64,000 bases of DNA from Candidatus Nitrosotenuis aquarius (GCF_002787055.1 NZ_CP024808.1:1018328-1082327), one strand, 5' to 3'; shown: positions 1-21,628, counted from the first letter of the stretch. Program-made: numbers and translations. Notes: generated from the sequence alone by a model not told the origin.

Positions 1-66
1 GTGTTAGAAACTAAAAAAGCATTATTACCTTATGCGTCAGACGAAATTAGAAAGCTCTTTGACTGA
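1..66 (+). CDS. possible C-terminal tail of a gene entering from the left (partial)
   Basis: Frame 1 is open from the window edge to a TGA at 64-66 and would encode 21 residues ending in an amphipathic, charged stretch. It would converge with and overlap the McrC gene by about 30 bases. The stretch is too short to identify, and an open frame of this length is common by chance, so this is only a pointer that a rightward gene may end here. Confidence 0.2.
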   Translation: MLETKKALLPYASDEIRKLFD

Positions 67-4172: not shown

Positions 4173-4187
4173 AAACCAACATCTGGA

Positions 4188-4355
4188 TTATTTTGTATTC
4201 TTCATGAGGTCTAGCTCTCGTCTCCACCATTCAATTACATCATGACAATCTCTACATACAGAAACTACTCTGTCATCTAGTTCTATGACATGATGTTTTG
4301 TTATGTTTTCTTTTGTTTTTCTACATACTATACAAATTCCTCTATTCCCAGACAC
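4188..4355 (-). CDS. small HNH-like zinc protein, 55 residues
   Basis: A short leftward frame with a GTG start (stop codon lies three codons upstream, so there is no longer form). The protein has CIVC near the N-terminus, a double histidine (KHHVIEL), then VCRDCHDV, giving the CxxC...HH...CxxCH layout of very small HNH-type zinc proteins, and ends in a basic helix. Whether it keeps nuclease activity is uncertain: the usual C-terminal N and H of an active HNH are not obvious. It lies directly upstream of mcrB on the same strand, 15 bases before its ATG, so it may be cotranscribed. Confidence 0.6.
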   Translation of the reverse strand: MSGNRGICIVCRKTKENITKHHVIELDDRVVSVCRDCHDVIEWWRRELDLMKNTK

Positions 4356-4428
4356 GCTACATTACCAAATCACATAGGATTAGTTAAGAATTATTGTGGT
4401 ACGATCATAAGAAAATAGGATCAAATAT

Positions 4429-4641
4429 TTATTTTAGTAATCCAAAGTGTTCAAAAGCTTCTTTGAGTTGTGGTAATCTCTTTTTTGGGCATGGCCACGG
4501 TCGTTTTTCTCCAATAGCGTAAGAGGGGTTTCTAACAGGCAAGCCATAGATTTGTTTTGCATGTGAGATCCACGCATTTTTTGGTTCAAATCCATATTTA
4601 GTCTTGATATATTGCTTCAAATCGTCATTTGTTATCATCAC
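4429..4641 (-). CDS. small basic conserved-looking protein of unknown function
   Basis: Seventy residues, rich in Lys, Trp and Pro, with a compact pattern (NAWISHAKQIYGLP, then a proline-rich RPWPCPKKRLPQLKEAF helix). I do not recognise a named domain; small proteins of this look occur next to accessory genes in ammonia-oxidising archaea, but that is recollection rather than evidence from this sequence. It starts with tandem ATGs, lies between the type IIG-like gene and the HNH-like gene on the same strand, and has its own AT-rich upstream region. Coding is supported by composition and by the absence of a competing frame. Confidence 0.5.
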   Translation of the reverse strand: MMITNDDLKQYIKTKYGFEPKNAWISHAKQIYGLPVRNPSYAIGEKRPWPCPKKRLPQLKEAFEHFGLLK

Positions 4642-4694
4642 ACATCTCTTAATTTGATATGAGATTAGTCTTTTAAAATATACTGAAATGATTT

Positions 4695-7600: not shown

Positions 7601-7838
7601 GTTTAAACTCAATCACTATATTTTCAAAAACTGCGTCAATTCTTCCCCTTAATTTCAGAAATTTACTTTCGGTAGGGACTTCAAAATCCATCTTTGAAAT
7701 ATCGATTTCAAAGACTTTTTGAATAAACGACGAAAATGCCACTGCTTTAGCATTTTCAGAGTGTTTATTTTTCACATCTTGAATGTATAGTGGTAGTTCT
7801 TTTTCTAAAATTTGAAGTGGATCTGCCAAACAACACAA
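4695..7838 (-). CDS. single-chain restriction-modification enzyme (type IIG-like): PD-(D/E)xK nuclease plus N6-adenine methyltransferase
   Basis: A 1047-residue enzyme expected to methylate adenine and cut DNA at the same site. Residues 60-80 carry a PD-(D/E)xK nuclease core (RGRIDAVFENIVIEFKR: D68, E77, K79). Residues 332-345 are motif X (GEFYTPDWLAEKIV), 357-369 motif I (VLDPSCGSGTFLF), 399-403 an acidic motif II region (GFDIHP) and 579-582 the catalytic NPPW of gamma-class adenine methylases. The C-terminal 400 residues are a target-recognition region with a GTFGPRH segment. Divergent from the ParB-like gene with a short shared intergenic region. Large adenine methylases also occur in BREX (PglX) and DISARM (DrmMI), but the nuclease domain and missing partners favour type IIG. 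Confidence 0.88.
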   Translation of the reverse strand: MCCLADPLQILEKELPLYIQDVKNKHSENAKAVAFSSFIQKVFEIDISKMDFEVPTESKFLKLRGRIDAVFENIVIEFKRDLTRSLEEAKDELKKYFQSLIEKFPTSKYIGIANDGIKFKVFQPIKKNGIVTDIEEIGNIDLETSDVKVIFNWFDSYFFTSKKIIPTSEHLKQSFGYNSPTYAVVRQELLELFDKVKDERRVKTKYDNWTRYLEIVYGDKPNEINLFIAHTYLSTFAKLLVYLKLSSKNQFRNYDAPPILQGYIFANYGIRNFVEEDLFTWIMYPSIKRKSSEIFEKLLRDLEIYDLDLIDEDVLKELYQDLIHPTIRKQLGEFYTPDWLAEKIVNEILQENPSKSVLDPSCGSGTFLFKTISYKIKKLVDVGLKKEDVLTHILENVIGFDIHPLAALIAKTNYLLAMRDILHYRRGPITIPVYLSDSLKLPTKKMEVTNAITTFEFDTQIDGKKFAFPLDIVDNIVNMDDVIEKMKVHGHELEEHIDDIKKSSYKIDINETAKNLIRSFDKAISNVKNDAMKQLLLHNVETLFEMIKDESDSIWPYILRNMYKPIAVSLRKVDAILGNPPWIAQQAMKNLTYQNYLKERSKTYELFDSKKIHNIPNLDLATLFFCQCSDIYLRDHGSIGFVMPRSILIGSQHENFLKFKKPNMKVEKIYDLEQVEPLFRIPSCVIFAKKSQLTVYPVTKEMFSGVLQTTNAHLSDAEKIIKLNTSSFEPAKRSTDHSIYHTKFSKGADIIPRCFWFMEVKNNSFLGFDPQSPFVESEFNKNAKVPWNKIKITGNLDKQFLFNSILSTDLIPFGSLRRHLVFLPVFMNNGKIKLINNFNEIGLEFQSTRKILQEIESLWLQHNKEKAKTITAYEWLNYRNKLTVQNPYPKFKVLYVASATYLTSCVIEPQKEFTFEVNNNKLTTTGLIADSTILYYDTNSAEEAHYLSSILNSTVLDQMIKPLQSAGTFGPRHIMKIPLTFPIPEYDSANSDHIRLATISKNCHDKVEHMLASITQKSTGKIRSIIRESLKSDISEINKIVKPLLNA

Positions 7839-7885
7839 ATTCTATAAAACCAGAATTAAACTTTCTATTACAAATAACTGTAAAA

Positions 7886-7894
7886 TTTTATTTA
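7886..7894 (+). promoter_or_regulatory. putative archaeal TATA box for the ParB-like gene
   Basis: The AT-rich stretch TTTTATTTA lies about 25 bases before the ATG at 7916, the distance expected for a leaderless archaeal transcript. No Shine-Dalgarno sequence precedes that ATG. The nearby upstream in-frame ATG at 7790 would overlap the divergent methyltransferase start and encode an unlikely extension, which supports the internal start and this promoter. Confidence 0.35.
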
Positions 7895-7915
7895 GTTTAC
7901 TTATTCTCATGCAAT

Positions 7916-9052
7916 ATGGAAATCAATACTGAAAATGCCAAAAGAATTGATTCCTATATATCAGATTATCCTACCTGTAAGACAGACTTCACAGAAAAAG
8001 TAACAATACAGGACAAAATTACTCGCATTCCGGTCTATCGACTTCCTCTGAATATGCTTTTTTACAATGTTCAGAATGGAAGATTTGCTGCTGAGTACAT
8101 TGAGCTAAAAAAGAAGTTAGGTCGAGAGCTTGATTCTCAAAATCCCAACGATGCAAAAGAAATAGAAAAAATGCTAAGAGATCAAAATGACTCTAAGACT
8201 AAATGGCTTAAAGAGGATATTCGCAATAATGGTCAACGGGATTCAGGCATAATTACACATGATGGTTTTGTTATAAACGGAAATAGACGTATGTCTGTTT
8301 TGAATCTTTTAGCTAAAGAAGATCCAAAATATGGATACATGGAAGTAGCTAGATTACCACCTCATGTCAGTGAATCTGATGTTTACAAAATAGAAATAGG
8401 AATACAACTTGCAAGAGAAGAACAACTAGACTATGGTCCAATAAACGAGCTACTCAAAATCAAACAGGGAGTCACATCAGGTTTAACAGAAGAGCAAATA
8501 GCAAAAACACTTAGCGGATTTACTGTTGATGACATTAAAGAACGATTAGAACGTCTAACACTAATTGAAGAGTATCTGGACTTTATTAAAAAGCCTGGAC
8601 AATATTTGGCAGCTGACGGATTAAATGAGCATTTTATTGATTTTCAAAAATCTATACTATCTAAAAACAAAAATAAAAAATCTCCAATTTTTGGCCCATT
8701 GGATTTACTAAATATGAAACAAGTTGCATTTTCCGTAATAAATCAAGGTGCAACACATATGGAAATTAGAAAAATTCCAAATGTAGTTCTTAATCAAAAG
8801 ATTAAGCCAATTTTTATTACTGCGGCTCAGAATGTGAGCGCTGATCCAAAAAGAACAAAAGAGATTTTTGAAACATGTCTTGAGAGAGTTAAAGCAGAGG
8901 AAAATCGTGATAGGCCATATCAGATCCTTAACACCATATTGGGAAATCTTGAAGCGTTAGATTATACAAATCCTGAGCTGAAAAAGGCAGAATACGATCA
9001 ACTAATCAAAAAAATTCTTGGTTATCTACAAGAATTACAAAAATTACAATAG
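7916..9052 (+). CDS. ParB-like nuclease/NTPase-fold protein, first gene of a defence operon
   Basis: Starting at 7916 gives 378 residues; an ATG 42 codons earlier is open but its extension is poorly conserved in character and overlaps the divergent gene. Residues 110-130 hold a ParB-like core (GFVINGNRRMSVLNLL), preceded by a helical, charged segment and followed by a helix-rich part (EEQIAKTLSGFTVDDIKERLERL) that resembles a ParB helix-turn-helix. ParB-fold proteins bind DNA and some use CTP or cut DNA; which applies here is unknown. It is followed after four bases by the SNF2 helicase gene, so the two are very probably one functional unit. Not a plasmid partition gene: no ParA is present. 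Confidence 0.8.
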   Translation: MEINTENAKRIDSYISDYPTCKTDFTEKVTIQDKITRIPVYRLPLNMLFYNVQNGRFAAEYIELKKKLGRELDSQNPNDAKEIEKMLRDQNDSKTKWLKEDIRNNGQRDSGIITHDGFVINGNRRMSVLNLLAKEDPKYGYMEVARLPPHVSESDVYKIEIGIQLAREEQLDYGPINELLKIKQGVTSGLTEEQIAKTLSGFTVDDIKERLERLTLIEEYLDFIKKPGQYLAADGLNEHFIDFQKSILSKNKNKKSPIFGPLDLLNMKQVAFSVINQGATHMEIRKIPNVVLNQKIKPIFITAAQNVSADPKRTKEIFETCLERVKAEENRDRPYQILNTILGNLEALDYTNPELKKAEYDQLIKKILGYLQELQKLQ

Positions 9053-9056
9053 TTAC

Positions 9057-10967
9057 ATGCCCGCAATATTTTTAGATAATCAGAAAATTCGAATATCCTT
9101 TTCTGATATTAAAAGTTCCGAGATAGATAATCAAGTTAGTCTTTTTTTCAAAAGCATGGGATCTATATTTGATGAAGAGACAAATTCATTTACCTTTGAT
9201 AGACCTTCAAATCTTTCATATTTACATACTGTTCTAAGTGATACAATACAATTTTTTGAAAGTAGAGGGTGGAAAATTGCATTAGATGAAAATTGTAAAC
9301 AGCTAATTTCCAGACATTCTGAAGATGAATCTAGCTATGAAAAAGCGTTAGAGATAGGCAGATCAATAAAAACATCTGAGGAGACTTTTATTGAATTACC
9401 AGTTATTTTTAAAAGACAATTAAAGGAATATCAGAAAAAATCTGTCAAACATTTAACAGAAATTGGAAATGCAGCTAATTTTTCTGTTCCAGGTAGTGGC
9501 AAGACCACAATTGCATATGCTGCATATTCAATTCTAAAACACAAAGGAATTGTAAATAAGATTTTTGTGGTTTGTCCCAGAGCTGCTTTTGTTCCATGGG
9601 AGGAAGAATTTCAGGCATGTTTTGGATACAAACCATCTTCGATTAGATTAGAAGGAAACAGAGTCGATTCCCACATACTAACAGATACAAACAACAAAGA
9701 TCTGATCCTTTCAACTTATCAGCTACCACCAAATCATTCTTACGCAATTAGCCAATTTTTAGAAAGAAACGACGTGTTAATGATCTTAGACGAGTCACAT
9801 CAAATTAAAAACATTGAAGGAGTTAGATCAAATGTATTAATCGATCTTGCACCATATGCAAAAAGAAGATTCATTCTATCTGGAACTCCGATGCCAAATA
9901 GCTGGGAAGACATATGGACACAATTTAATTTTCTTTGGCCATTATCTAGCATTCTTGATAATCCTCAGATCTTCAGAGATTATACTAAATTAAAAAATGG
10001 ATTAGGAAAATATAATGAACGAATAAATCCTTTATTTACAAGAATAGCTAAGAAAACACTTAATCTCAAAGAACCAAAATATGAGAAGATTTACTATCCA
10101 CTTCAACCAATTCAAAAGAGAATTTACGATTCAATTGAGTTAAGAACATTCGAACAGATAGAAAAAATGCATGTAGAGTCAATTGTCGAAAGTGCTAGAA
10201 TGCAGAAATGGAGACGTGCTAAAATGGTTAGACTGATTCAAGCAGCATCCAATCCCGCCTTACTAAATAGAACAGATACAGAATTTGAATTAGAACCAAT
10301 TTCTGATGATGGAATTGATGTGGCTGAACTCATTGAAAATTATACAACATACGGAGAAACACCATCAAAACTACAAGAGGCGACAAGGAAAGCCAGAGAG
10401 TTATTAGAAAAAGGCGAAAAAGTTGTCATCTGGACAAATTTTGTGCACAATATCGACATGCTAAAAGATCAGCTTTTAGCTGATGTCAAACCGTTGTGGG
10501 TAGACGGTAGGGTATCAAAAGACGAATCTGAAGATATTGAACAAAATAGAGAAAAAATGATTCAAGAATTCAAATCAGATTCCAATCCACGAGTTTTAAT
10601 TGCCACGCCTGCTTCATGTGCAGAATCTGTTTCTCTCCATAAATATCAAAACAAAACAGTTTGCTATAATGCCATTTACATAGATAGAACATACAATGCC
10701 GGCCAATATATGCAGTCTTTAGACAGAATACATAGAATCGGAATGGATTCCGATACCCAAGTGACATATTGGTTATGCATAGCAAAAGACACCTATGATG
10801 AATTAATTGATCAAAGATTAAATCATAAAATCCAAAATATGTATAATTTATTGAATGAAGATATCAATGTGTTTGATTTAGATGTTAATGAAACACAGGT
10901 ATCAGAATCCGAAATTGAAGATAATTATAAAGAATTAATTGAATATCTTAGAAAAAAAGTGAAATAA
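9057..10967 (+). CDS. SNF2-family helicase/translocase of the ParB-like defence operon
   Basis: The ATG at 9057, four bases after the ParB-like stop, gives 636 residues; an upstream in-frame ATG would overlap the previous gene. After a 115-residue N-terminal segment come superfamily 2 motifs: Q-like LKEYQKKSV near 122-130, Walker A VPGSGKT at 144-150, DESH at 245-248, SGTP at 275-278, and in the second lobe WTNFVHNIDML, LIATPASCAESVSL and DRIHRIG. The DESH box and HRIG end mark the SNF2/Rad54 group, double-stranded DNA translocases. Shorter than DISARM DrmD, which is around 1000 residues. The next gene begins on the adjacent base, confirming an operon. Confidence 0.9.
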   Translation: MPAIFLDNQKIRISFSDIKSSEIDNQVSLFFKSMGSIFDEETNSFTFDRPSNLSYLHTVLSDTIQFFESRGWKIALDENCKQLISRHSEDESSYEKALEIGRSIKTSEETFIELPVIFKRQLKEYQKKSVKHLTEIGNAANFSVPGSGKTTIAYAAYSILKHKGIVNKIFVVCPRAAFVPWEEEFQACFGYKPSSIRLEGNRVDSHILTDTNNKDLILSTYQLPPNHSYAISQFLERNDVLMILDESHQIKNIEGVRSNVLIDLAPYAKRRFILSGTPMPNSWEDIWTQFNFLWPLSSILDNPQIFRDYTKLKNGLGKYNERINPLFTRIAKKTLNLKEPKYEKIYYPLQPIQKRIYDSIELRTFEQIEKMHVESIVESARMQKWRRAKMVRLIQAASNPALLNRTDTEFELEPISDDGIDVAELIENYTTYGETPSKLQEATRKARELLEKGEKVVIWTNFVHNIDMLKDQLLADVKPLWVDGRVSKDESEDIEQNREKMIQEFKSDSNPRVLIATPASCAESVSLHKYQNKTVCYNAIYIDRTYNAGQYMQSLDRIHRIGMDSDTQVTYWLCIAKDTYDELIDQRLNHKIQNMYNLLNEDINVFDLDVNETQVSESEIEDNYKELIEYLRKKVK

Positions 10968-11951
10968 ATGTTAACCAACCTGAAGGAAATTAATCGACTC
11001 CTTCTTGCTATCAAACAAAGAGAATTGAATGAAGACGTAGCAAAGAAGCTAGATGTAATTGATGAATGCAAAAATATTGTATTAGGTGGAATCATACCAG
11101 ATCATAATGAAACAATTTCGTTTTGTAATTCTATGAATATTATTAATGAAGATGCTGATCTATTGTTTCTTACAAATACTGGTAAGCAATTATTTTTGTT
11201 AAATAAGGAAAGACAATATGAATTAACATCAGATCAAAAAGAAGTTTTGATCAAACAATGTTTTCTTGAAAATGACCATAAAGAAAAAACATTACAAATC
11301 TTAAAACAATTTTATGTTGATCATAGACGCCAAACATTCACATATTCTTTAAAAAATGAAATTCCATTAATTGCAGATCCTGTCTTTTTATCATTACTCA
11401 AACAAACAGAATTAATTGTAGAACATGGATATTTGTTAATTGTAAATGAAAAATTTGCTGGATTAATTTCTGCATTACTTATGCCTAAACATCATATTAC
11501 TGATGATGAATTAATGGAGATACTAAAAATTGAGAAAATTATAGGTAAAATTGCTGAAAAAATTGTTTTTGAGCACGAAAAGCGACGACTTTATAGCGAC
11601 GAAAACGCAAAGGCTGAATCCGACTTGGTACAAAACATCAGTAGTACTTTTGTTAATGCTGGTTACGACATCAATTCATTTGATGGTAAAACAAGAGATT
11701 TGAAATTCAATAGGTTTATCGAAGTAAAAGGATCTACAGGAAAGAGAATTTCTTTTTTCTTGAGTAGTAATGAAATAGACAAAGCCAAAGAACTCGGCTC
11801 AAAATATTGGATTTATTTTGTATCTGAGATAGATATAAAATCAAAATCACATAACGGTGAAATAATTAAAATTCAAAATCCAGTCATCAATATTCTAAAT
11901 AATGAGGAATATGAACAAGAATGTGTCAAGACGCGAATACATCTAAAATAG
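10968..11951 (+). CDS. DUF3883-domain protein, probable PD-(D/E)xK-type effector
   Basis: A 327-residue protein whose ATG follows the helicase stop directly. The N-terminal 200 residues look helical and winged-helix-like, without a named domain. Residues about 215-300 match the DUF3883 ('NO VEIN' C-terminal) pattern: ESDLVQNI near the start, GKTRDLKFNRFIEVKGST with the E-V-K of a nuclease core, then FFLSSNEIDKAKELGSKYWIYFV. DUF3883 is common beside helicases in prokaryotic defence loci and is thought to be a nuclease-fold domain. In this operon it is the likeliest cutting subunit working with the ParB-like and SNF2 proteins; that role is inferred from context. Confidence 0.8.
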   Translation: MLTNLKEINRLLLAIKQRELNEDVAKKLDVIDECKNIVLGGIIPDHNETISFCNSMNIINEDADLLFLTNTGKQLFLLNKERQYELTSDQKEVLIKQCFLENDHKEKTLQILKQFYVDHRRQTFTYSLKNEIPLIADPVFLSLLKQTELIVEHGYLLIVNEKFAGLISALLMPKHHITDDELMEILKIEKIIGKIAEKIVFEHEKRRLYSDENAKAESDLVQNISSTFVNAGYDINSFDGKTRDLKFNRFIEVKGSTGKRISFFLSSNEIDKAKELGSKYWIYFVSEIDIKSKSHNGEIIKIQNPVINILNNEEYEQECVKTRIHLK

Positions 11952-12039
11952 TGATTGGATCTAATACAATGATTTTCTGCTAATAATTTAATTTTAAAAG
12001 AATAATAACATGGAAAAAATTATTTCATAATAAGGTAGT

Positions 12040-12930
12040 ATGAAGAAACTAAATCTCAATAATGTATATCATAAAGATTGTCTAGACATGTTAAAGAAAC
12101 TAGATGATAATTCTATTGATTTCATAATAACATCTCCGCCATACGCAGATAATAGGAAAAAAACCTATGTCGGTGTTCCAATAAAGGAATATGTTCCGTG
12201 GTTTTTACCAATTTCTTTAGAACTAAAACGAGTACTCAAATCAGATGGCTCTTTTATTTTGAACATAAAAGAACGAACTGTTGATGGTGAACGTGGGACT
12301 TATGTGCTAGAGCTCATATTAGAAATGAGAAAACAGGGTTGGCTTTGGACTGAAGAATACATTTGGCATAAAAGGAATACGTTCCCAGGTAAATGGCCTA
12401 ATAGATTTAGAGACGCCTGGGAAAGATGTCTGCATTTTACGAAACAAAAGAAATTCAAAATGTATCAAGATGAAGTCATGGTACCGATGGGCTCTTGGGC
12501 TGAAAAACGTCTGAAAAATCTATCAAAAACTGACAAAAAAAGAGACGAATCTAAAGTTTTAAGCGGTTTTGGTAAAAATGTATCAAATTGGCTGGATAGA
12601 AAAACAGCATATCCTACCAATGTCTTACATATGGCAACTGAATGTTCCAATGTAAACCATAGTGCGGCATTTCCAGTATCATTGCCAGAGTGGTTTATCA
12701 GATTATTCACAAAAGAAGGCGATATAGTACTTGATCCATTTATGGGAAGTGGTACGACAGCAATTGCAGCGATTAATCTTAACAGACAGTTTCTTGGCTC
12801 AGAAAAAAATACAAAATACTACAAACATGCTCTAGAAAGAATTAAAGAGATTGGAAGAGAATCATTAAAAAATAAAACGAAGAATATGCAAAATAAAAAA
12901 CAATCTACAATGACATTATGGCAAGAATAG
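12040..12930 (+). CDS. beta-class DNA methyltransferase, SPPY type (probably N4-cytosine), type II R-M
   Basis: Site-specific DNA methyltransferase of 296 residues. The catalytic motif IV is TSPPY at 31-35, which points to N4-cytosine methylation although a few SPPY enzymes act on adenine. The AdoMet-binding motif I comes late, as LDPFMGSGTT at 231-240, so the motif order is that of the beta class. The end overlaps the endonuclease gene by 13 bases, the usual arrangement of a cognate type II pair. It protects host sites from the PmeII-like enzyme. An 88-base gap separates it from the DUF3883 gene, so it may have its own promoter. Confidence 0.92.
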   Translation: MKKLNLNNVYHKDCLDMLKKLDDNSIDFIITSPPYADNRKKTYVGVPIKEYVPWFLPISLELKRVLKSDGSFILNIKERTVDGERGTYVLELILEMRKQGWLWTEEYIWHKRNTFPGKWPNRFRDAWERCLHFTKQKKFKMYQDEVMVPMGSWAEKRLKNLSKTDKKRDESKVLSGFGKNVSNWLDRKTAYPTNVLHMATECSNVNHSAAFPVSLPEWFIRLFTKEGDIVLDPFMGSGTTAIAAINLNRQFLGSEKNTKYYKHALERIKEIGRESLKNKTKNMQNKKQSTMTLWQE

Positions 12931-13664
12931 ATGGTAACAAATTAGAATGTTTAATTGAAAAATGCCTAAATGATTTCTATGAGAGTAGACTTGCTAGGTT
13001 AGAGGAATTAAAATTAAAAATCATACTGCGACGAAAAAATCCATATCTTTTCAAAGCACTCAATACAGAAAAAGCATCTGATTTAGTTGAACAAATACTC
13101 ATGGCGTACATTTCATCATCAGATGAGACAATGTTTGGCGATAAATTTTTTGAACCAATTGCCAAACAAGTATCGGGAGGAGTAGTATCTCCAAGCGAGG
13201 GTGTAGATATAGCAGTAGAAACCAATGATCGATACACAGCTTATGCTGTAAAATCTGGACCGAATCCATTCAACTCTTCTGCTAAAAAAAGACAGAATGA
13301 TGAATTCAATGAATTACGTAATAGATTATATAAAATTAGAAAAGAATTTGATCCGGTACTTGCATATTCTTATGGAAAAAAAATAATCCCTCCAAAAAAG
13401 AACAAGAGTTATAGAGAAATTGCTGGTCAAGCATTTTGGGAAGAGTTAACCGGAGATTCTGATTTTTACATCAAATTGATTCGACTTATGGGAGATATCC
13501 CAAGAAAACACATGGAAAAATACAAACCACAATTAGAACATGCAGTGAATCGTTTTACGCTTGAGTTCACCAAGGATTTTTGCCAGAAAAATGGTCAAAT
13601 TGATTGGGAAAAACTAGTTCAATTAGTAAGCGAAAAACCAAAAAAACTGTCTAAAAGCAGATAA
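12918..13664 (+). CDS. type II restriction endonuclease, PmeII-like family
   Basis: A 248-residue protein matching the PmeII-type endonuclease layout: RRKNPYLFKA near 38-47, AYISSSDETMFGD near 63-75, and the nuclease core SEGVDIAVE then YAVKSGPNPFNSS, with likely catalytic D97 and K112. It begins inside the last codons of the methyltransferase gene, giving translational coupling. It would cut unmodified DNA at the site methylated by the upstream enzyme; the recognition sequence cannot be read from the protein. The family assignment is from recognition of these motifs and is fairly firm. Confidence 0.85.
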   Translation: MARIDGNKLECLIEKCLNDFYESRLARLEELKLKIILRRKNPYLFKALNTEKASDLVEQILMAYISSSDETMFGDKFFEPIAKQVSGGVVSPSEGVDIAVETNDRYTAYAVKSGPNPFNSSAKKRQNDEFNELRNRLYKIRKEFDPVLAYSYGKKIIPPKKNKSYREIAGQAFWEELTGDSDFYIKLIRLMGDIPRKHMEKYKPQLEHAVNRFTLEFTKDFCQKNGQIDWEKLVQLVSEKPKKLSKSR

Positions 13665-13708
13665 TCAAATAGATCAAGTTTTTCTATATCAAAAAGACGT
13701 TCATTTTA

Positions 13709-15205
13709 TTGTCTACCAAAATCACATTCTATGGCGGAATTAATGAGATTGGTGGTAACAAATTTCTAATTGAGGATAAGGGAACGAGGATTTTTCTAGA
13801 TTTTGGAATGCAGATGGGTAGAGCTAACGAATTTTTTGGTGATTTTATGCAGCCAAGAACACTCAATGGGATGGGAGATCTTTTTGAATTCGGACTTCTA
13901 CCTAAGATTGAAGGGATTTACAGAAAAGATTACGCAAAGCACACAAACATGGCGGACCATGACAAGGAGACAAAATGCGATGCTGTGTTATTGACTCATG
14001 CTCATGTTGATCATGCAGCATACATCCATTATCTAAGGCCTGAAATTCCAATTTACTGTACAGAAGCAACAAAGCTGATTATGAAAACATTTCAAGATAC
14101 GGGAAGTGGAGATGAGTACATCAAGTACAAAGAAAATTTTAGAATTTATGAAAATGATAAAGGCGAAATAAGTCGAGCTAAAAAAGACAAAAACCGAGAC
14201 ATCATAGAACGCGACATTAGAATAGTAACACCATACAAAGAATTCAGTATTGATTCAATTAAGGTAGAACCAATACCTGTAGATCATTCTTTACCAGGGG
14301 TTTGCGGTTATGTAATTCACACTTCAAAAGGGTCAATAGCATATACTGCAGATATTAGATTTCATGGTAGACGAAAAAATGAAAGTGAAAAATTTGTTGA
14401 GAAATGTGCTTCATCAGATCTAGATCACCTGTTGTGTGAGGGTACTAGAATCAACGAAGCTACATCCACAACGGAATTTGAAGTGGAAAAAGACATTGGA
14501 GATATAATTAATACAACTAAAGGATTGGTAACAGTTTCATATCCAACAAGAGATCTAGATAGGCTCCTTTCTTTCTATAATGCTGCAAAAAAAGCCAATC
14601 GATTTCTTGCAATTGATCTAAAGCAGGCATATTTGCTAAAATTATTTCAAGAATCCGAATCATACCGAGGAATTTATCCGAGATTAGATGATAATACGAT
14701 CAAAATCTACATTCCCAGAAAAGATTGGGGACTTGTTGATAAAAATTCTGAATATTGGACTGAAAAACAAATTCAAGCTGATTACGATATGTGGGAACGG
14801 GAATTCTTAGATTACGAGAATTCAATTGATTATAGAAATATCCAGGAAAAACAAAGCGATTATGTTTTTTATTGTAGTGATTATAAGCTCCAAGAGCTAA
14901 TTGATGTACGACCTGAAGATGGCTCTAGTTATGTGAGGTCTTCTACTGAGCCATTCAATGACGAAATGCACATAGATCATGCAAGAATAAAGCGATGGCT
15001 AGTACATTTTGGATTATTGAAAAGTGAAGATAATTGGAATGTTACTCATGTATCAGGACATGGCTCACGCGACCAAATCAGACACATTGTACAAGAAACA
15101 AAAACAAAGAAGATAATTCCAATACACACGGTTCATGAGGATTATTTCAAACAATGGCATAGTAATGTTGCAACCGTGCAACTAAATGCTTCATTGATGC
15201 TATAG
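13709..15205 (+). CDS. RNase J-like metallo-beta-lactamase/beta-CASP nuclease
   Basis: Starts with TTG at 13711 region (13709-13711); no ATG is available before the conserved fold. The 498 residues contain all expected metal motifs: D31 at the end of IFLDFG, HAHVDH at 97-102, H193 in PVDHSLPG and D215 in AYTADIRFHG. The beta-CASP motifs are E in LLCEGTRIN, H451 in VSGHGS and H473 in IIPIHT. This is the RNase J/CPSF arrangement, so a role in 5'-end RNA processing or decay is expected by family. It differs from housekeeping archaeal aRNase J in position, directly after an R-M pair in AT-rich accessory DNA, which suggests a defence or toxin-like function. Confidence 0.82.
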   Translation: MSTKITFYGGINEIGGNKFLIEDKGTRIFLDFGMQMGRANEFFGDFMQPRTLNGMGDLFEFGLLPKIEGIYRKDYAKHTNMADHDKETKCDAVLLTHAHVDHAAYIHYLRPEIPIYCTEATKLIMKTFQDTGSGDEYIKYKENFRIYENDKGEISRAKKDKNRDIIERDIRIVTPYKEFSIDSIKVEPIPVDHSLPGVCGYVIHTSKGSIAYTADIRFHGRRKNESEKFVEKCASSDLDHLLCEGTRINEATSTTEFEVEKDIGDIINTTKGLVTVSYPTRDLDRLLSFYNAAKKANRFLAIDLKQAYLLKLFQESESYRGIYPRLDDNTIKIYIPRKDWGLVDKNSEYWTEKQIQADYDMWEREFLDYENSIDYRNIQEKQSDYVFYCSDYKLQELIDVRPEDGSSYVRSSTEPFNDEMHIDHARIKRWLVHFGLLKSEDNWNVTHVSGHGSRDQIRHIVQETKTKKIIPIHTVHEDYFKQWHSNVATVQLNASLML

Positions 15206-15209
15206 CTCA

Positions 15210-15482
15210 CTACACATAGAACGGACCTTCTTCATGGAAGTCGATTTTCACGTATTCTGCCAACCTAACTATATCATCTATTACTGTATCACTTAGCATA
15301 TTTTCAGGTTGATGGAATACTAGCCAGTTTCTGATATCAGTTATGCTGTATGGCACTCCAGTTTGTAGCAGCTTACGGAAGTTGTTGATTAGCTTTTTCT
15401 GATCGCTAGGATAACTTAGTACACGGTTGTTTATTTCGGACCACTTTAGCGATTCAAGGAAAGTAATCAGCCGCTCATCCAT
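15210..15482 (-). CDS. unknown small protein at the end of the terminase operon
   Basis: Ninety residues, mixed alpha/helical character, acidic C-terminus ending FHEEGPFYV; no recognisable domain. The ATG lies 11 bases after the terminase nuclease stop, on the same strand and with the same higher GC, so it is the last gene of the leftward viral operon. Its stop is only four bases from the stop of the convergent RNase J-like gene, which makes this a plausible edge of the element. Function cannot be assigned. Confidence 0.6.
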   Translation of the reverse strand: MDERLITFLESLKWSEINNRVLSYPSDQKKLINNFRKLLQTGVPYSITDIRNWLVFHQPENMLSDTVIDDIVRLAEYVKIDFHEEGPFYV

Positions 15483-15493
15483 CTTTTCCAGTG

Positions 15494-16171
15494 TCAGTTA
15501 TTTTCACCTCCTTGTGGCATCGACGTCTTTACAGACGTTATCGTGAACCCACTTACTGCCAGTTTTCGTAATGTGTTTTCAACAACAGCAGGTGAACTTG
15601 GATCTACACTATCAGTCATGTCAAACGACATTGCAAGAGGCAATGGTTTTTCCATCTCTTGTTTCGCCACACGGCATGCCAGTGCAAGTGCCCATAGCAA
15701 ATCATCATGGCCGCTTGCAGGATGTTTGAATTTCACATTTCCCGCATCTGTGATAGTTCTTTCTTGTTCCTCAAGCTGCTGGATTAGCTTCTCCGCACCC
15801 TTTGATGGTAGTATCAGTTTGCCTTGTTGTCGCAATAAGATTATGTGCTCAATCATCTCTTCCTTGGCCTTCTGCGTGAACACAATCCCTTCTGCATTCT
15901 CTGCAGCATATTCTTCTATGACAGAGTCTCCTATGCCGCCCCTGTCCACTCCGAGTTTTGTCCAGTAAAAGTATCTGAAGTATCTCTTGGTGTCTGCGAT
16001 TACAGTTTTGTAATCAACATGATCCCACTCCTTCAGGAATACAAGTTTGAGGATCTCGTTGTTTATGCACTGCAATACAACCAGTGCAGAATAATCTCGG
16101 CGTTTAGCTAGATCTTGTCCTCCAAAAGTCTCTATCAGAGGTCCATCACTTGTTTTCCAAGATGTGATCAT
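15494..16171 (-). CDS. terminase large subunit, separate nuclease domain
   Basis: RNase H-like nuclease half of a viral DNA-packaging terminase, 225 residues. The acidic catalytic residues are visible in GGQDLAKRRDYSAL, in GVDRGGIGDSV and in HDDLLWALALA, the order seen in TerL nuclease domains. The gene starts by an ATGA overlap with the ATPase gene; its frame is closed by a TGA only 15 bases before that ATG, so an in-frame fusion is impossible without a shift. Together with the ATPase gene (293 residues) the total of 518 is that of an undivided TerL. It would cut concatemeric genomes during packaging. Confidence 0.85.
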   Translation of the reverse strand: MITSWKTSDGPLIETFGGQDLAKRRDYSALVVLQCINNEILKLVFLKEWDHVDYKTVIADTKRYFRYFYWTKLGVDRGGIGDSVIEEYAAENAEGIVFTQKAKEEMIEHIILLRQQGKLILPSKGAEKLIQQLEEQERTITDAGNVKFKHPASGHDDLLWALALACRVAKQEMEKPLPLAMSFDMTDSVDPSSPAVVENTLRKLAVSGFTITSVKTSMPQGGENN

Positions 16172-17049
16172 AGACTCACCAATTCATAGTCCTCAAGCGT
16201 CTTACTTGCAAACAGTCCTGCAGGGAATGCCGCATTCTGCGATGTCGTAAACTGGCAGTTGAACTCCTGCTCAAAGTCGATTCTCAGGTCGTTTTTCTTG
16301 GAATTTATGTATGATTCTGACAGTAAAAGTCCATACGATACAGTGTATGGTTGTGCAAGTTTGTAGTATTCATTTTCCTCAATCCACAAGTCGTAAAAGA
16401 AACCACGCCTGCCATTAGGCGTGGAAATGCAAATGAAATCTCCTTCAGTGTTTGCTATGTTTGGTTCCAGAGCATCATAGATTACTCTGTCATCAACTAG
16501 CTTGAAATGTGCCGCCTCATCCAGAAATACACATACAACATTCTCCGAGCCCCTGAGTGCCTCCGGTGCCGCAGGGAATGTGTGAATTGTAGTACCATTA
16601 AAGAACTCCAAAGTTGAGCTTGTCTTTTTTATTATGAGATCCGAGTATTTCCATTCGTTTCCATTCAAATCAACAAATCCATTCCAGAACAGCTTGTCAA
16701 ATCTGTCCAACAATCTATCTGCCTGTCGTTGTCTATTACCTGCGACTATCATGATATCCCCTCCTGCATATCTATCAAAGCAGTTCTTTGCAATGGATCT
16801 GAGTCCCGTCTCTGTAGCACCAATCTTTCGGGACTTGTTGAGCATGACTCGATGGTACTGGTTGATTATTCTGTCAAGCTTGCTTTGGTAGTCAAAGATT
16901 TTTGTTGGCTGTTTTGTCTTTGGATGGATCGGCGGTCCTATCATTTCATTGAACTGCACAAAGTCTGCAGGCACCGACGGTGTGGATGACGACTTTTTGA
17001 TCCTTGCCTCTAGCATCGATATCCGCTTTTGAAGGTTCATGCTAGTCAT
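16168..17049 (-). CDS. terminase large subunit, separate ATPase domain
   Basis: Packaging motor half of TerL. Translation from ATG 17049 gives 293 residues and overlaps the zinc-ribbon stop by eight bases; an upstream ATG at 17139 is open but would run through that gene. After a short coiled N-terminus come FDYQSKLDRIINQYHRVMLNKSRKIGATET (a deviant Walker A within SRKIGATET, as in many TerLs), EALRGSENVVCVFLDEAAHF (Walker B with catalytic Glu) and ISTPNGRRGFFYDLW (coupling motif). It ends exactly where the nuclease domain should begin and is coupled to that gene by ATGA. Confidence 0.86.
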   Translation of the reverse strand: MTSMNLQKRISMLEARIKKSSSTPSVPADFVQFNEMIGPPIHPKTKQPTKIFDYQSKLDRIINQYHRVMLNKSRKIGATETGLRSIAKNCFDRYAGGDIMIVAGNRQRQADRLLDRFDKLFWNGFVDLNGNEWKYSDLIIKKTSSTLEFFNGTTIHTFPAAPEALRGSENVVCVFLDEAAHFKLVDDRVIYDALEPNIANTEGDFICISTPNGRRGFFYDLWIEENEYYKLAQPYTVSYGLLLSESYINSKKNDLRIDFEQEFNCQFTTSQNAAFPAGLFASKTLEDYELVSL

Positions 17050-17194
17050 GCCTGTCTGCAACCTCCCTCGTCTTTCCACCACAACGACGGCAGTTGCCAA
17101 AGATCCACTGCAGCTTGCCGCATTTGAGGCACCGTACATTCTTGAGAACCATTCCGTTGGATGACACAGGCCTTGGCGTCGGAAACCTGTTCAT
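17042..17194 (-). CDS. small zinc-ribbon protein between replication and terminase genes
   Basis: A 50-residue frame from ATG 17194 to TAG at 17042-17044. It contains CLKC and, eleven residues later, CRRC (spacing CxxC...CxxC), in the setting VRCLKCGKLQWIFGNCRRCGGK, a typical zinc ribbon with a basic tail. Its start overlaps the upstream gene's stop (ATGA) and its stop overlaps the terminase start (ATGACTAG), so it fills a precise place in the operon. Likely a DNA- or protein-binding accessory factor for packaging or transcription; it could take the place of a small terminase subunit, but that is speculation. Confidence 0.75.
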   Translation of the reverse strand: MNRFPTPRPVSSNGMVLKNVRCLKCGKLQWIFGNCRRCGGKTREVADRHD

Positions 17195-17421
17195 TTGATG
17201 CCCAACCTCATTTCCAGCTCTTCCACACGCCCTTCCAGAAACGAGTTTTCCTCGTCCTTGATGAGGGAGGCCTGCACGCTGACCAAGTAGCCAATGGTTT
17301 TTGCCAAGGCCACACTTTTGCCAAGGTCCGACTCACCATCGAATCGCTGCTGCAGATTTTTGATGGTCTTGTGCATCATCTTTCCATAGGAACCCCTTGA
17401 ACGCCAGCGTGGAGGGCTCAA
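17191..17421 (-). CDS. small helical protein of the viral operon
   Basis: Up to 76 residues from a TTG that overlaps the previous stop (TTGA), or about 62 from the tandem ATG near 17379. The body is helical and charged, with a C-terminal heptad-like EEN-SFLEGRVEELEMRLGIK stretch that could form a coiled coil. No named family is recognised. Placed directly before the zinc ribbon and terminase genes, where small terminase subunits or packaging adaptors often lie, so a DNA-recognition or oligomeric adaptor role is possible but unproven. Confidence 0.6.
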   Translation of the reverse strand: MSPPRWRSRGSYGKMMHKTIKNLQQRFDGESDLGKSVALAKTIGYLVSVQASLIKDEENSFLEGRVEELEMRLGIK

Positions 17422-18956
17422 ATTTGTGCCTCCAGATGAGTGTCAAGTGTAGCTGTGTTAGGCACAACCGCCTCACGACCCCCACTCATCCCGTTTTTTT
17501 CTAAATTTTCCTGAGATAATTTAGAAAATCTTGGGTTGAGTATTGCCTTGAACTCGTGCCAGTATCCAAGAAACTCCGTGGACAGAAACCAGTCGAATTC
17601 CGGCTTTAGCTTTACCGCCATGATGGGCTTTGTTTCTCCCTCCACTTCCATCCTCTGTGCAAGTCCTATCTTGACTAGTCTCTCCATCTCCTTGCGTGCC
17701 GTTGCACGCGAGACGCCTGATGCTTCCATGTATTCATCTGTGTTTAGTTCTCCATCATGCTCAATCAAAAGCCGCAGCAGCTCAACACGTTCCCTTGCCG
17801 CACTTGACAGGGCAACCGGGACAACTACCCTGAGATCATCCGGTGCTACATGGTTTCTGCCATTGAGCACTGCATGGCCCCTGGCCAGGTTGTAGAGTGC
17901 ACTGCTTGCTCTGGAAGGATTCTCTTCTATTGGGGTTTCAAAATTGTAGCTTGCACCGCCTGAATCGGATTCTGCCGTGTGCCATGTCGGCACTGATGCC
18001 CTCAGCTTTGCCAGGATCATTGCCATTTGGATTATTTTTTCCAGTGTGGCTTCATCGTCTTTTTCAGAGTCCCAGCAGACTTTGCGGTTTGACACAGACG
18101 CCAAAAACAATTGCCAAAATTCTTTGACATTTTCTTTGCAGGACTCGAGCTTTGCTGCATACGACTGGCCCTTTAGGATTTGTTTTATCTCGTTGATTTT
18201 TTCATTGCCGGATTTTTGGTCTGACGGAAGCCGCAGGAAGTAGATCTTTGGTCCCAGATTGCCCAACAACTTCCACACCCGATGGGGTATGTCAACAACT
18301 GCACCAAGCCAGGTAAACGAGTAGTCTCCCTGATAGCCCCTGCTTCCGTGGACGCCAGAATCAGACTTGAATCCACGTCCGTCCAGAATTCGTGTTAGCA
18401 TGCCGAAATACTCTACGAGCTGGTCTGGATTGCCCGAGAAAAGCGGTGCCAGCTCCGGCGTGACCAGCGTTTTGTGCCTGATTCTGGGCAGGAGGTCCAC
18501 TTTTTCTAGGTCCTTCTTTGAGGAGTTTGCGGAATGGCTCACAAACGACTTTGGGGTGAAGGAATCCGACACGTAACATTCAGGCAGTGCGGCCAGTATC
18601 TCAAGCACCGTCGACTTGTAGCTGGATGGATTACCCATCAATATCAGAGTGAATACCTGCGTCACCCCTTGAATGGACATTTGTGCCTTTATTGCAAGAC
18701 ACACAGTCACTGCAAAGATTATACTGGGAAAAGAGGATCGGATTGCTTCATTCATTCTGGACAAGGCGGTTGAAAGAGGTTCTATCGAAGTAACAATTGG
18801 TTTGGTTTCAACTGCAGTTGGGACTTTGTCGTCATCGCCTAAGAACGACATGATTTCGTGGCCTCGCGACCTACATTCAGAAAATACCGGACTGTCTTCC
18901 GATTCGGCCTCTTTGTCATCAAATCTGCATCTATAGAACAACACCGTCATCTCCAT
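17418..18956 (-). CDS. P-loop ATPase with C-terminal winged helix, probable viral replication helicase
   Basis: A 512-residue protein. The P-loop is GNPSSYKST at 108-116 after a hydrophobic strand (FTLILM); a Walker B-like strand is LVTPELAPLF, and a later strand GDYSFTWLGAVVDIP may hold sensor residues. Residues about 395-450 form a winged helix (LRLLIEHDGELNTDEYMEASGVSRATARKEMERL). The layout of ATPase followed by a winged helix is shared with MCM-like and other hexameric replication motors of archaeal mobile elements; exact family not certain. It is the largest gene in the leftward operon, with clearly higher GC than the flanking defence genes. Confidence 0.7.
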   Translation of the reverse strand: MEMTVLFYRCRFDDKEAESEDSPVFSECRSRGHEIMSFLGDDDKVPTAVETKPIVTSIEPLSTALSRMNEAIRSSFPSIIFAVTVCLAIKAQMSIQGVTQVFTLILMGNPSSYKSTVLEILAALPECYVSDSFTPKSFVSHSANSSKKDLEKVDLLPRIRHKTLVTPELAPLFSGNPDQLVEYFGMLTRILDGRGFKSDSGVHGSRGYQGDYSFTWLGAVVDIPHRVWKLLGNLGPKIYFLRLPSDQKSGNEKINEIKQILKGQSYAAKLESCKENVKEFWQLFLASVSNRKVCWDSEKDDEATLEKIIQMAMILAKLRASVPTWHTAESDSGGASYNFETPIEENPSRASSALYNLARGHAVLNGRNHVAPDDLRVVVPVALSSAARERVELLRLLIEHDGELNTDEYMEASGVSRATARKEMERLVKIGLAQRMEVEGETKPIMAVKLKPEFDWFLSTEFLGYWHEFKAILNPRFSKLSQENLEKNGMSGGREAVVPNTATLDTHLEAQI

Positions 18957-19068
18957 GTTTGTTGCAGACGCACCTTACTTCGAATTCAAGTCCAGTTGCA
19001 CAATCTCTTTTGAGAATTTTGTCACAGTGGTTTGTACAGTTAGAGTCGATGCAACCGCTGCACAACAT
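18931..19068 (-). CDS. Cys-rich micro-protein, probable zinc finger
   Basis: A 45-residue frame from ATG 19068 to TAG at 18931-18933. Cysteines at 3, 6, 11, 15, 23, 33 and 35, with histidines at 14 and 38, form CxxC, CxxxC and CxC groups, far more than chance in a short frame. It overlaps the start of the ATPase gene by 26 bases in another frame and follows the RHH gene by 14 bases, so it fits as a member of the leftward operon. Function unknown; metal-binding DNA- or RNA-associated factor is the natural guess. Confidence 0.55.
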   Translation of the reverse strand: MLCSGCIDSNCTNHCDKILKRDCATGLEFEVRCVCNKHGDDGVVL

Positions 19069-19082
19069 CTCAAGAATTAGCT

Positions 19083-19271
19083 TCAAAACAACTTCTCCTC
19101 TTGCTTGCAGTTCAAGTCAGATGTCTTGAAGCCGTTTTTTTCCAGAGACTCAGTTAATAGAATTCTCAGTGCTGCCGAAATGTTTATTCCATGCAACGTC
19201 GCAAATGCTTTTGTCTGGGACCAAACATTACGGTCGATTTCAATTAGAGTCCTAACATTTCTTATTTCCAA
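19083..19271 (-). CDS. ribbon-helix-helix type regulator
   Basis: Sixty-two residues from a TTG. A short basic strand (VRTLIEIDRNVW) followed by two helices (SQTKAFATLHGINISAALRILLTESLEKNG) matches the ribbon-helix-helix fold of small dimeric repressors. It is the first gene of the leftward viral operon and is divergent from the winged-helix gene with a 62-base shared intergenic region, where an operator would be expected. Likely autoregulates the operon. The fold call rests on pattern, not on a conserved catalytic residue. Confidence 0.6.
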   Translation of the reverse strand: MEIRNVRTLIEIDRNVWSQTKAFATLHGINISAALRILLTESLEKNGFKTSDLNCKQEEKLF

Positions 19272-19333
19272 TAATTATCTATAGTCAAACGTCTATCAAA
19301 GAATGACTTGGATTACATTGTGGGGGTCGCGGT

Positions 19334-20275
19334 TTGGCAAGAGGATTAGACAAGAGGCAGAAAAAAGCAGTTGGAAGATCAGAGCACAAAATCATCAAAT
19401 ATGTTAGCAAACATGAGCCAGTTCTGTTTAGACAAATAGTGTCAAACAGTGGATTGCAGGATCACAAGACAGTACGGAAGAGACTCTCAGAATTGATCGC
19501 TAAAAAACAGATAGGCACAACCAAATTGGTGTATACTACAAATAAGAACAAGGGAAGAGAGTTTTACTTTTCAATTCCACCCTCTAAAAAAATATCTGAT
19601 TTATTGCTCAGAGAGGACATCTTTAGGAAAATTGGGACTGACAAGTATTATTACGGCATACGAGACGATGTTCCACTACCCGTACAGGCTGCTCATAAAC
19701 TCAGATTGCTGATGTTAGAGTTTCAGAGATTGAAGCAGAAATTCGACAGTAAATCCAACTGCATTGTGGTAAAAATCAGAGATAGTGACGGTAAATCAAT
19801 GTATGATTTTGAATCAAGTAATGCTCAGCTTTTAATAGATTTTGCAGCAATTGTAAAAAGCAGTACATCTGATTCTTATTTTGGTTTTAAAGAGTATTAT
19901 GATAGTGTTCTACGAGATATTATTTCCAAAATGGATGATATGTTTCAGAATTATAAAATTCTCTACGGGAACGGAATTTTTGATGGTCCAATTAAGACAA
20001 TCATAGCTAGATTGCTAATCGAAAATACGAAAAGCGGTGCGGCAAGCCAATTACCCAAGCTTTTGTTTGGTGATTCTAAGATAAAACTAAAGAAATCATT
20101 TTGTTTGAAAATTGCATCAGAGATTGAACGGGAATTATTCAACAAAGACGGCTCTCCCAACATAGACAGGATTAATCAAAATAACATCAACACGATTGGG
20201 GTGAAAGAATATCTTCCTCTTATCTTGTCTGGTGAGGCACTATACGAAATATGGAAAAATAACACTAAGGCCTAG
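19334..20275 (+). CDS. protein with N-terminal winged helix, function unknown
   Basis: Begins at a TTG just after a G-rich stretch (GGGGGTCGCGG) and encodes 313 residues. Residues 15-75 form a winged helix (EHKIIKYVSKHEPVLFRQIVSNSGLQDHKTVRKRLSELIAKKQIG, then a two-strand wing with TTNKNKGREFYFS). The rest is helical and unidentified. Divergent from the RHH gene and convergent with the integrase, overlapping its end by 11 bases. Its GC is lower than the terminase operon. Probably an element-encoded regulator; alternatives such as an antitoxin-like or replication-initiation protein cannot be excluded. Confidence 0.6.
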   Translation: MARGLDKRQKKAVGRSEHKIIKYVSKHEPVLFRQIVSNSGLQDHKTVRKRLSELIAKKQIGTTKLVYTTNKNKGREFYFSIPPSKKISDLLLREDIFRKIGTDKYYYGIRDDVPLPVQAAHKLRLLMLEFQRLKQKFDSKSNCIVVKIRDSDGKSMYDFESSNAQLLIDFAAIVKSSTSDSYFGFKEYYDSVLRDIISKMDDMFQNYKILYGNGIFDGPIKTIIARLLIENTKSGAASQLPKLLFGDSKIKLKKSFCLKIASEIERELFNKDGSPNIDRINQNNINTIGVKEYLPLILSGEALYEIWKNNTKA

Positions 20276-21494
20276 TTTTCCAGCCATCTCTGTAGAGCTC
20301 ATCCTTGATTCTAGCAACAGCGTCATTCACAAGGGAAGGTATTTGTTTCTCCAATTCAGATTTTTCATTTCTTAGTTTTTTGTTTTCTACTTTCATCCTT
20401 TCCTCATCCGAGATAGTCAAGTTTGGCACTGCATTCAGGTATTCCTCAATCAGCTCAAAGATGTGTGCCTGATAGTAGTTCCTGTCCAGCTTGACCAAGC
20501 CGGTGTGGTTCATCATGAATTCCTTTTTGATCAAGGCTGCCAAGTGGGAGTCCTTTGATATTGTCTCCTTGTTGACTTTGTTGAAAAATCTCCTAAAGCC
20601 GTTCATTGCCGGAATTTCATGTCTTCTCTTTCCCTTTACCAACGGAGTCCTGAGTTGTGCCCTTTTGAGTATGTCGTCAATCCTGGCCCTGACAGCATTT
20701 GGTGGAAGCTTTCTTGCAAAGACTCCATCTTTTTTGAAAAGAGGATCTTGCAGTTTTGGTTCTTTTCCGGTTTGTTGGACCCATTCTTTTTTGTAATCTT
20801 GTATTGCATTGTATGCTTCAGGAGTGATGAACCCAGGATACTCGTCAGGTGTGTTCTTGTATATTGTTAGTATTGCACAGACGACTTGTGCATGGGTTTG
20901 TTCGGATTCTGTTATGTCAAAAGCTAGCTTGTCACCTATTCTGTAGACTGGTCTCATGTCTCCCCATGTGAGATCAAATCCTCCCACGCGTATGCCGGAA
21001 CTTGCAGCAACTAGCACTATTGCCCTGTCGATTGCACCGTTGCCAAACCTGAGCATGTCTGCAATCTCTTTTCTGGTGTAGGCCCTGCCTTTGTCGTTGT
21101 TATCCAGTTCCGGAAAGGTCGCCATCACCCTTCTCCATACCAATGGAACATTGTTCATCTCAAACAGCTTTCTCACAGGCTTGAAGTAGTTTGGAATAGT
21201 GGATGGATTGAGGTAGTTTGGGTCATTCTTTGGAAGCTCTGATCTTTCCTTCAGCTTCTTTGATAGTGCAAGTACCACAGACATTCCCCAGTCAGGGTCT
21301 TTCTTGGTCTTGTTGACAAGCTGCGAAGCCCTTTCCTCAAAGCTTCCCTCCAATACATTTTCCAAGATATCATTGAGTATTCTTCGCAAAGTCCTAGTGT
21401 ACTTGTCCTTGGTTTCCTTGGACTTTATTCCATGATAGAATAACTCTAAAGCACTATGGTTTGTGATCTGCAAATCCTTGTTCTCTATCTTCAT
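20265..21494 (-). CDS. int: tyrosine recombinase (integrase) of an archaeal element
   Basis: A 409-residue integrase. Visible catalytic regions are the first Arg in AASSGIRVGG, the box II segment AMNGFRRFF (second Arg present; the residue usually His is Asn here), and NHTGLVKLDRNYYQ holding the late His and the nucleophilic Tyr. An N-terminal core-binding domain covers about residues 10-130, and a charged coiled-coil tail (KKLRNEKSELEKQI) follows the catalytic domain. The gene begins 45 bases from the tRNA-Lys 3' end, the normal place for an integrase that uses a tRNA 3' end as attachment site. It is intact, not split by integration. Confidence 0.88.
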   Translation of the reverse strand: MKIENKDLQITNHSALELFYHGIKSKETKDKYTRTLRRILNDILENVLEGSFEERASQLVNKTKKDPDWGMSVVLALSKKLKERSELPKNDPNYLNPSTIPNYFKPVRKLFEMNNVPLVWRRVMATFPELDNNDKGRAYTRKEIADMLRFGNGAIDRAIVLVAASSGIRVGGFDLTWGDMRPVYRIGDKLAFDITESEQTHAQVVCAILTIYKNTPDEYPGFITPEAYNAIQDYKKEWVQQTGKEPKLQDPLFKKDGVFARKLPPNAVRARIDDILKRAQLRTPLVKGKRRHEIPAMNGFRRFFNKVNKETISKDSHLAALIKKEFMMNHTGLVKLDRNYYQAHIFELIEEYLNAVPNLTISDEERMKVENKKLRNEKSELEKQIPSLVNDAVARIKDELYRDGWKTRP

Positions 21495-21539
21495 AATACT
21501 ATCATGTGGTCTGGAACCATAAAAAGCACTTTATGATAG

Positions 21540-21628
21540 CGGGTCTGGTGGGATTCGAACCCACGACATAAGGATGTCTCCAAGTAATTTTAAGAGTCCT
21601 TCGCTCTACCTGGCTGAGCCACAGACCC
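21540..21628 (-). tRNA. tRNA-Lys(CTT) with a 15-base intron
   Basis: Reads on the minus strand. Acceptor GGGTCTG pairs with CAGACCC; D-arm GCTC/GAGC; anticodon stem AAGGA/TCCTT with loop CTCTTAA, anticodon CTT; T-arm GTGGG-TTCGAAT-CCCAC; discriminator G. Between loop positions 37 and 38 are 15 extra bases at 21576-21590, the standard archaeal intron site, so exons are 21591-21628 and 21540-21575, giving a 74-nt mature tRNA. CCA is not encoded. The 3' end faces the integrase, marking this as the attachment site of the element to the left. Confidence 0.92.

Follow-up and report, generated by a model that had tools for sequence, protein, structure and literature searches.

The window analysed here is a stretch of 64,000 nt (C1:1018328-1082327) from the complete 1.697-Mb genome of Candidatus Nitrosotenuis aquarius, an ammonia-oxidising archaeon of the family Nitrosopumilaceae. 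Coordinates are window positions unless marked as genome positions, and negative values lie to the left of the window's edge. At a tRNA-Lys(CTT) gene with a 15-nt intron (21539..21628, minus strand), we found an integrated element, E1, that carries a virus-type terminase in two genes and no recognisable virion genes. E1 spans 23.6 kb, from about -2094 to 21554 (genome C1:1016233-1039881; 1..21554 inside the window), as delimited by an attachment (att) repeat and an empty site. The exact 18-bp repeat TAGCGGGTCTGGTGGGAT occurs at 21537..21554, the 3' end of the tRNA, and at -2094 to -2077, where it adjoins a second integrase; a third att copy, of 15 bp, lies at -18409, the far end of the low-GC island. 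The att partner was recovered by an exact short-match search, and a 20-base probe with 3 mismatches gave no partner. In the congener G225, the tRNA directly abuts a 98-aa host gene that sits at the island's far end here, with the crossover at CCACCAGACCCGCTA; in G215, too, the tRNA adjoins the host gene, and neither genome has an island at this site. Because of the att repeat copies and the empty site in G225, we read the tRNA-Lys(CTT) island as two tandem elements, E1 and E2. The first-pass annotation had placed the element at 15206-21540. Its location at tRNA-Lys was right: ARAGORN labels the tRNA 'Phe', but the reading becomes Lys(CTT) when the 15-nt intron is allowed, the orthologous site is called tRNA-Lys(CTT) in G217, G223 and G215, and G225 has an identical intron-containing tRNA. 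The extent was wrong, as the att repeat and the empty site rule out an end at 15206; E1 continues for about 2.1 kb beyond the left edge of the window, and 15 kb of it is dense defence cargo.

The terminase lies in an operon of eight genes on the minus strand, which runs from 19271 down to 15210 in the order RHH-like (ribbon-helix-helix), Cys-rich, MCM-like AAA+, p76, Zn-ribbon-like, TerL-N, TerL-C and p90. TerL-N (293 aa, 16168..17049) is the ATPase, or motor, of the terminase and matches PF03237 (1.3e-10) and phrog_2 (1.8e-21), while its family profile matches the ATPase domain of T4 gp17 (1.1e-16). TerL-C (225 aa, 15494..16171) is the RNase H-like nuclease, with matches to PF17289 (2.2e-8) and phrog_5909 (2.2e-12) and a family profile that matches solved terminase nuclease domains (4e-16). 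Hemagglutinin matches of the TerL-N family profile come from helices in its first 96 positions and were disregarded as artefacts. The motifs KSRKIGATE, DEAAH (Walker B) and STPNG are retained in TerL-N, and the acidic residues D20, D26 and H155-D156-D157 in TerL-C; the E1 terminase has the Walker A, the Walker B DEAAH, the coupling motif and the nuclease acidic residues of a large subunit. Integrase, regulator and all eight operon genes are open reading frames (ORFs), and six of the seven operon junctions overlap (by 4, 26, 4, 4, 8 and 4 bases), the last one being an 11-base gap. The earlier description of intact, tightly packed genes for an integrase, regulators, a replication ATPase and a terminase is therefore accurate. 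The terminase had also been called complete, though split. Motor and nuclease are both present, but TerS (the small subunit) was not recognisable in E1 when viral ORFs and profiles were compared with the island.

The same division of TerL is found in viruses. In IMG/VR contigs with a 45-52% identical TerL-N, TerL-C is a separate gene, often several kb downstream, and is followed by a portal-size gene, which in some relatives matches portal families. The ATPase and nuclease halves are also separate genes in the proviruses L094 and L230. When IMG/VR was queried with the single TerL-C sequence of E1, no matches were obtained. Since related tailed viruses and proviruses encode ATPase and nuclease separately, the split is ancestral and not damage, and a single TerL gene broken by a frameshift is ruled out. 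As judged from the sequences, the E1 terminase was taken from tailed viruses of these archaea.

When the ORFs of 18 virus and provirus loci were compared with the six frames of the island, the matches were essentially TerL-N, TerL-C, Prim-Pol and, weakly, a TerS-like protein, with one further small match (8-160) to a short viral ORF without known role. A portal profile from the virus relatives gave no significant match in the island or in other capsid-less loci, a profile search of the whole genome found no portal of this virus group, and none of the remaining E1 proteins matched a structural PHROG. The absence of capsid, portal and tail genes, first noted for the shorter interval, thus extends across the att-bounded 23.6 kb, in which capsid genes had been named as the finding that would speak against the proposal. 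E1 lacks the portal, capsid and tail genes of a tailed provirus (Caudoviricetes); it is att-bounded and integrated, with an integrase and no virion genes, like a cryptic integrated element (CIE). No conjugation genes were seen among its annotated large genes, although no search aimed at them was made. That E1 is an autonomous virus whose structural genes were not recognised is very improbable. It could be cited in favour that a few E1 proteins were not assigned to a family, namely the regulator, p76, p90 and three proteins of 224, 186 and 211 aa encoded at the left end. However, no unassigned gene is of portal size, nearly all large ORFs are restriction or defence enzymes, the remaining 420-aa ORF, at 7790-9052, shows no more than weak similarity to ParB, and the portal profile finds nothing in the island.

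The putative tyrosine-recombinase integrase of E1 (409 aa, 20265..21494, minus strand) is homologous to that of locus L033 (1.9e-40), which weakly matches phrog_1 (2e-6) and PF00589 (4e-4); the E1 sequence itself gave no direct Pfam or PHROG match in the family searches, and att sites adjoin the gene. In our recurrence survey of 250 genomes of the family, relatives of this integrase were found in 130, and those inspected are mostly beside tRNA genes. A divergent gene (313 aa, 19334..20275, plus strand) is assigned as a regulator from its position and sequence; its N-terminus is probably winged helix-turn-helix-like (wHTH), and no family match was above threshold in Pfam and PHROG searches. The operon begins with the small RHH-like protein (62 aa, 19083..19271; weak DUF6290 match), whose gene overlaps by 4 bp that of the small Cys-rich protein (51 aa, 18931..19086). 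The MCM-like AAA+ protein with a C-terminal wHTH (512 aa, 17418..18956) matches AAA_lid_2 (4.8e-7) and has the Walker A sequence GNPSSYKST; its family profile weakly matches MCM2 (0.0027) and a wHTH, and a role in replication is suggested. A single-sequence query of IMG/VR with this protein gave no matches, and the structure predicted from its single sequence was unusable (pLDDT score 35). The small protein p76 (17191..17421) occupies the slot where relatives carry TerS, and it was not recognisable as TerS in viral-ORF and profile searches. The Zn-ribbon-like protein (50 aa, 17042..17194) precedes TerL-N, and p90 (15210..15482), without an assigned family, closes the operon.

We give about even credence to the reading that E1 is a defence-carrying integrative element resembling a satellite of tailed viruses. 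Like the phage-inducible chromosomal islands (PICIs), E1 has an integrase with att sites, a divergent regulator, a putative replication gene and no virion genes. In the case of the packaging-specificity gene, E1 has TerL-N and TerL-C without a TerS match, and E2 has a weakly matching TerS-like protein. If a split-terminase tailed virus infected the cell as a helper and provided portal, capsid and tail, the integrase would excise E1 and the MCM-like AAA+ protein would replicate it; the element's own motor and nuclease would then engage the helper's portal and load E1 DNA into the helper's particles. The cargo would benefit the host by restricting other viruses. Recognition of E1 DNA is the weak point of this mechanism, because no TerS was found in E1; the candidates are the helper's TerS, the TerS-like protein of E2, or p76. 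Excision, the replication role, helper dependence and packaging of E1 are all predictions from gene content. The first-pass annotation had advised looking for helper viruses with TerL-compatible portals. Tailed viruses and proviruses do exist in which a portal accompanies a terminase split in the same way, and such viruses could act as helpers.

TerL-N of this group was found in seven of the 250 genomes, namely that of E1 (G000) and six others (G116, G233, G213, G120, G216 and G217). A portal was found by profile search in none of the seven; completeness is 98% or more for G116, G213 and G217, two genomes are incomplete (86% and 73%), and G216 consists of one contig. TerL-N has TerS as its neighbour in L027, L028, L029 and L033 and, more weakly, in L035; L030 ends at a contig edge. 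In the congener G217, an integrase, TerS and TerL-N sit at the same tRNA-Lys. The check proposed earlier, for near-identical elements at this tRNA, thus gave one related locus, and the capsid-less terminase loci do recur. In L028 (G233) and L035 (G216), TerS and a nuclease-less TerL ATPase stand almost alone amid host genes, L035 adjoining an OLD-like protein. We also observed a near-identical tandem duplication in L031 (G041:C1, 94.5-102.4 kb), with a unit of ~6.8 kb that contains a distant TerL-like ORF (345 aa).

Besides the missing TerS, several observations weigh against the satellite-like reading. The host genome contains no helper, as no portal of this group was found in it. Among the seven genomes, TerL-C occurs only in G000, the other copies being nuclease-less; most of them have no nearby integrase, and one consists of TerS and TerL-N only, between host genes, and is relic-like. 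Relatives of the AAA+ protein occur in 4 family genomes, without an adjoining terminase. Decay does occur in the group, because L097 (G315:C3, about 69.6-70.8 kb), within a sugar/glycosyltransferase cluster, has a fragmented TerL-N next to an intact TerL-C. In the TerL tree, island and viral sequences are interleaved and the deep nodes around the E1 sequence have weak support, whereas the clade uniting L029, L030, L033 and L035 with the viral L057 is fully supported (100/100). With island and viral sequences interleaved, the tree does not support a single ancient satellite lineage of TerL; the pattern would fit captures that happened several times, as for bacterial satellites, or remnants that arose several times.

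Alternatively, E1 would be a remnant provirus or cryptic element, derived from a tailed virus that lost its virion genes, with defence genes filling the space and the terminase kept as an undecayed passenger without packaging function. We consider this explanation possible, at odds clearly below even. In the viral relatives, TerS and TerL-N lie several kb from TerL-C and the portal, and one deletion would therefore account for the TerS and TerL-N pairs of the other genomes. The solo pair without an integrase (L028), the broken copy (L097), the lack of a helper in the genome and the failure of island TerLs to form one clade point the same way, and the similar NitKor-E1 was read as a probable relic by Krupovic et al. 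2019 (PMC6563490). On the other hand, the 23.6 kb hold no trace of any virion gene, and capsid-less loci recur in seven genomes of the family. At sites conserved in at least 90% of viral TerL-N sequences, the E1 TerL-N has 0 substitutions out of 36, compared with 1-10 in the other island copies and 0-13 in viral sequences left out in turn, and it lies inside a fully open, overlapping operon. Neutral decay had been expected to damage the remaining genes, and no sign of it was found in E1. The conserved-site test is nevertheless also compatible with a recent loss of the virion genes, and the codon-position divergence fits coding constraint but is compatible with selection acting either in viruses or in the island. 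The first-pass proposal of a remnant or satellite therefore stands in part: virus-derived packaging genes, the absence of virion genes, lack of decay and recurrence agree with it, but E1 has no recognisable TerS, the island TerLs do not form a single lineage and some relatives lack an integrase.

Several of the other TerS and TerL-N loci are next to defence genes, namely a type I restriction-modification (RM) system (L027), a dnd-like system (L030) and the OLD-like protein (L035). Together with the lack of the nuclease in these loci, this raises the alternative that the terminase was exapted and does not package, and instead serves the island in another way, for example as an antiviral decoy that jams the packaging of infecting viruses. 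We regard it as unlikely for E1, which retains the nuclease with all catalytic residues and whose operon ties the terminase to a replication-type gene; these features would point to the handling of the element's own DNA.

E2 (L006) occupies 16.3 kb (-18409 to -2077; genome 999918-1016250) and contains an integrase 38% identical to that of E1, a divergent regulator, a Prim-Pol (PF09250, 4.6e-6), a 147-aa TerS-like protein, a type I RM system and an HSP90/histidine-kinase-like ATPase. The TerS-like protein matches the TerS profile only with an E-value of 9e-4 among 845 island frames. It has relatives in 17 other family genomes, and in another genus L222 (G026:C10, 30-50 kb) has an E2-like layout with an integrase, a divergent regulator related to that of E2, a PriX-like protein and a TerS-like protein (6.7e-49 to that of E2). 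Members of the family are also found singly, flanked by host genes (L225), and a packaging role of the E2 protein is therefore uncertain. That the island is a satellite pair dividing a terminase, with motor and nuclease in E1 and the recognition subunit in E2, seems quite doubtful. Since the terminase of this viral lineage is made of separate polypeptides, satellites could under such a pairing acquire individual packaging components. To our knowledge, this would be the first family of satellites described for tailed viruses of archaea.

The defence cargo of E1 includes a McrBC-type system (37..4172, minus strand; PF10117 1.7e-45, AAA_5 4.5e-13), composed of McrC (37-1314) and an AAA+ partner (1314-4172). 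It is followed by a type IIG restriction enzyme-methyltransferase (4695..7838, minus strand; PDLC03630 2.4e-96) and, on the plus strand, by a SNF2 helicase with a NOV_C-domain protein (9018..11951), a type II methyltransferase with an EcoO109I-like restriction enzyme (12040..13664; PF14511 1.1e-57) and a nuclease-like protein of metallo-beta-lactamase fold (13709..15205; PF12706 4.9e-12), which is also present in the L027/L101 island. A small Cys-rich HNH-like ORF at 4188-4355 recurs across several unrelated islands (L175, 6344-6523; L223, 12325-12573). The GC content is ~44% in the E1 core and in the core genes near 22-29 kb, and ~32% in the flanking cargo. From 30 to 64 kb the window is a long low-GC block that, judged by eye, resembles surface sugar biosynthesis (epimerases, aminotransferases, cytidylyltransferase-like and NeuB-like ORFs).

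Among known elements, NitKor-E1 of Ca. Nitrosopumilus koreensis AR1 carries TerS and TerL and no other virus genes; the element and the role of its terminase were called enigmatic, it was judged a likely relic and filed as a CIE, and a terminase was stated not to have been identified before in non-viral elements (PMC6563490). Both NitKor-E1 and E1 are integrated thaumarchaeal elements with a tyrosine integrase (putative in E1), a terminase, a restriction gene and no other virus genes. NitKor-E1 has TerS and TerL with no split reported, whereas in E1 the TerL is split, TerS was not recognisable, the terminase operon includes an MCM-like gene, and E2 is a tandem partner. The CIEs of Thaumarchaeota (median att 17 bp; PMC6563490) share with E1 and E2 a tRNA target, short att (18 bp here), an XerC/D-type integrase, RHH and Zn-ribbon proteins, MCM or primpol, and RM cargo. 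In Nitrosotenuis AQ6f, five elements were catalogued in four tRNA genes, one with primpol-S3H, and the TerL search of the same study gave five matches, none of them in AQ6f (PMC6563490). E1 and E2 may be among these catalogued elements, with the terminase then previously unreported.

A review of satellite families (PMC11389934) touches on satellites of archaeal viruses only in passing. No satellite of an archaeal tailed virus was found in the literature searched, subscription papers being largely outside its coverage. The archaeal satellites known to us all belong to spindle-shaped viruses, and satellites of archaeal tailed viruses would be new. With capsid-less terminase loci recurring in ammonia-oxidising archaea and att sites defined in one complete genome, the choice between relic and satellite can be put to the test. 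If E1 is a satellite, defence systems would be able to spread through such elements among archaea that count among the most abundant.

In bacteria, PICIs carry TerS and use the TerL of the helper, and capsid-forming PICIs (cfPICIs) carry capsid genes. E1 resembles PICIs, including the Staphylococcus aureus pathogenicity islands (SaPIs), as well as P4 and cfPICIs, in having an integrase, a divergent regulator, a putative replication gene, a packaging gene, no or borrowed particles, and defence cargo. It differs in being archaeal and in carrying motor and nuclease instead of TerS or capsid genes. With the split-terminase viruses and proviruses of Nitrososphaeria (IMG/VR L047-L060; L094 and L230), E1 shares the same TerL-N (45-52% identity to the close contigs) and a separate TerL-C; those viruses carry TerS, portal and late genes, whereas E1 has the MCM-like gene, the integrase and the defence genes in their stead.

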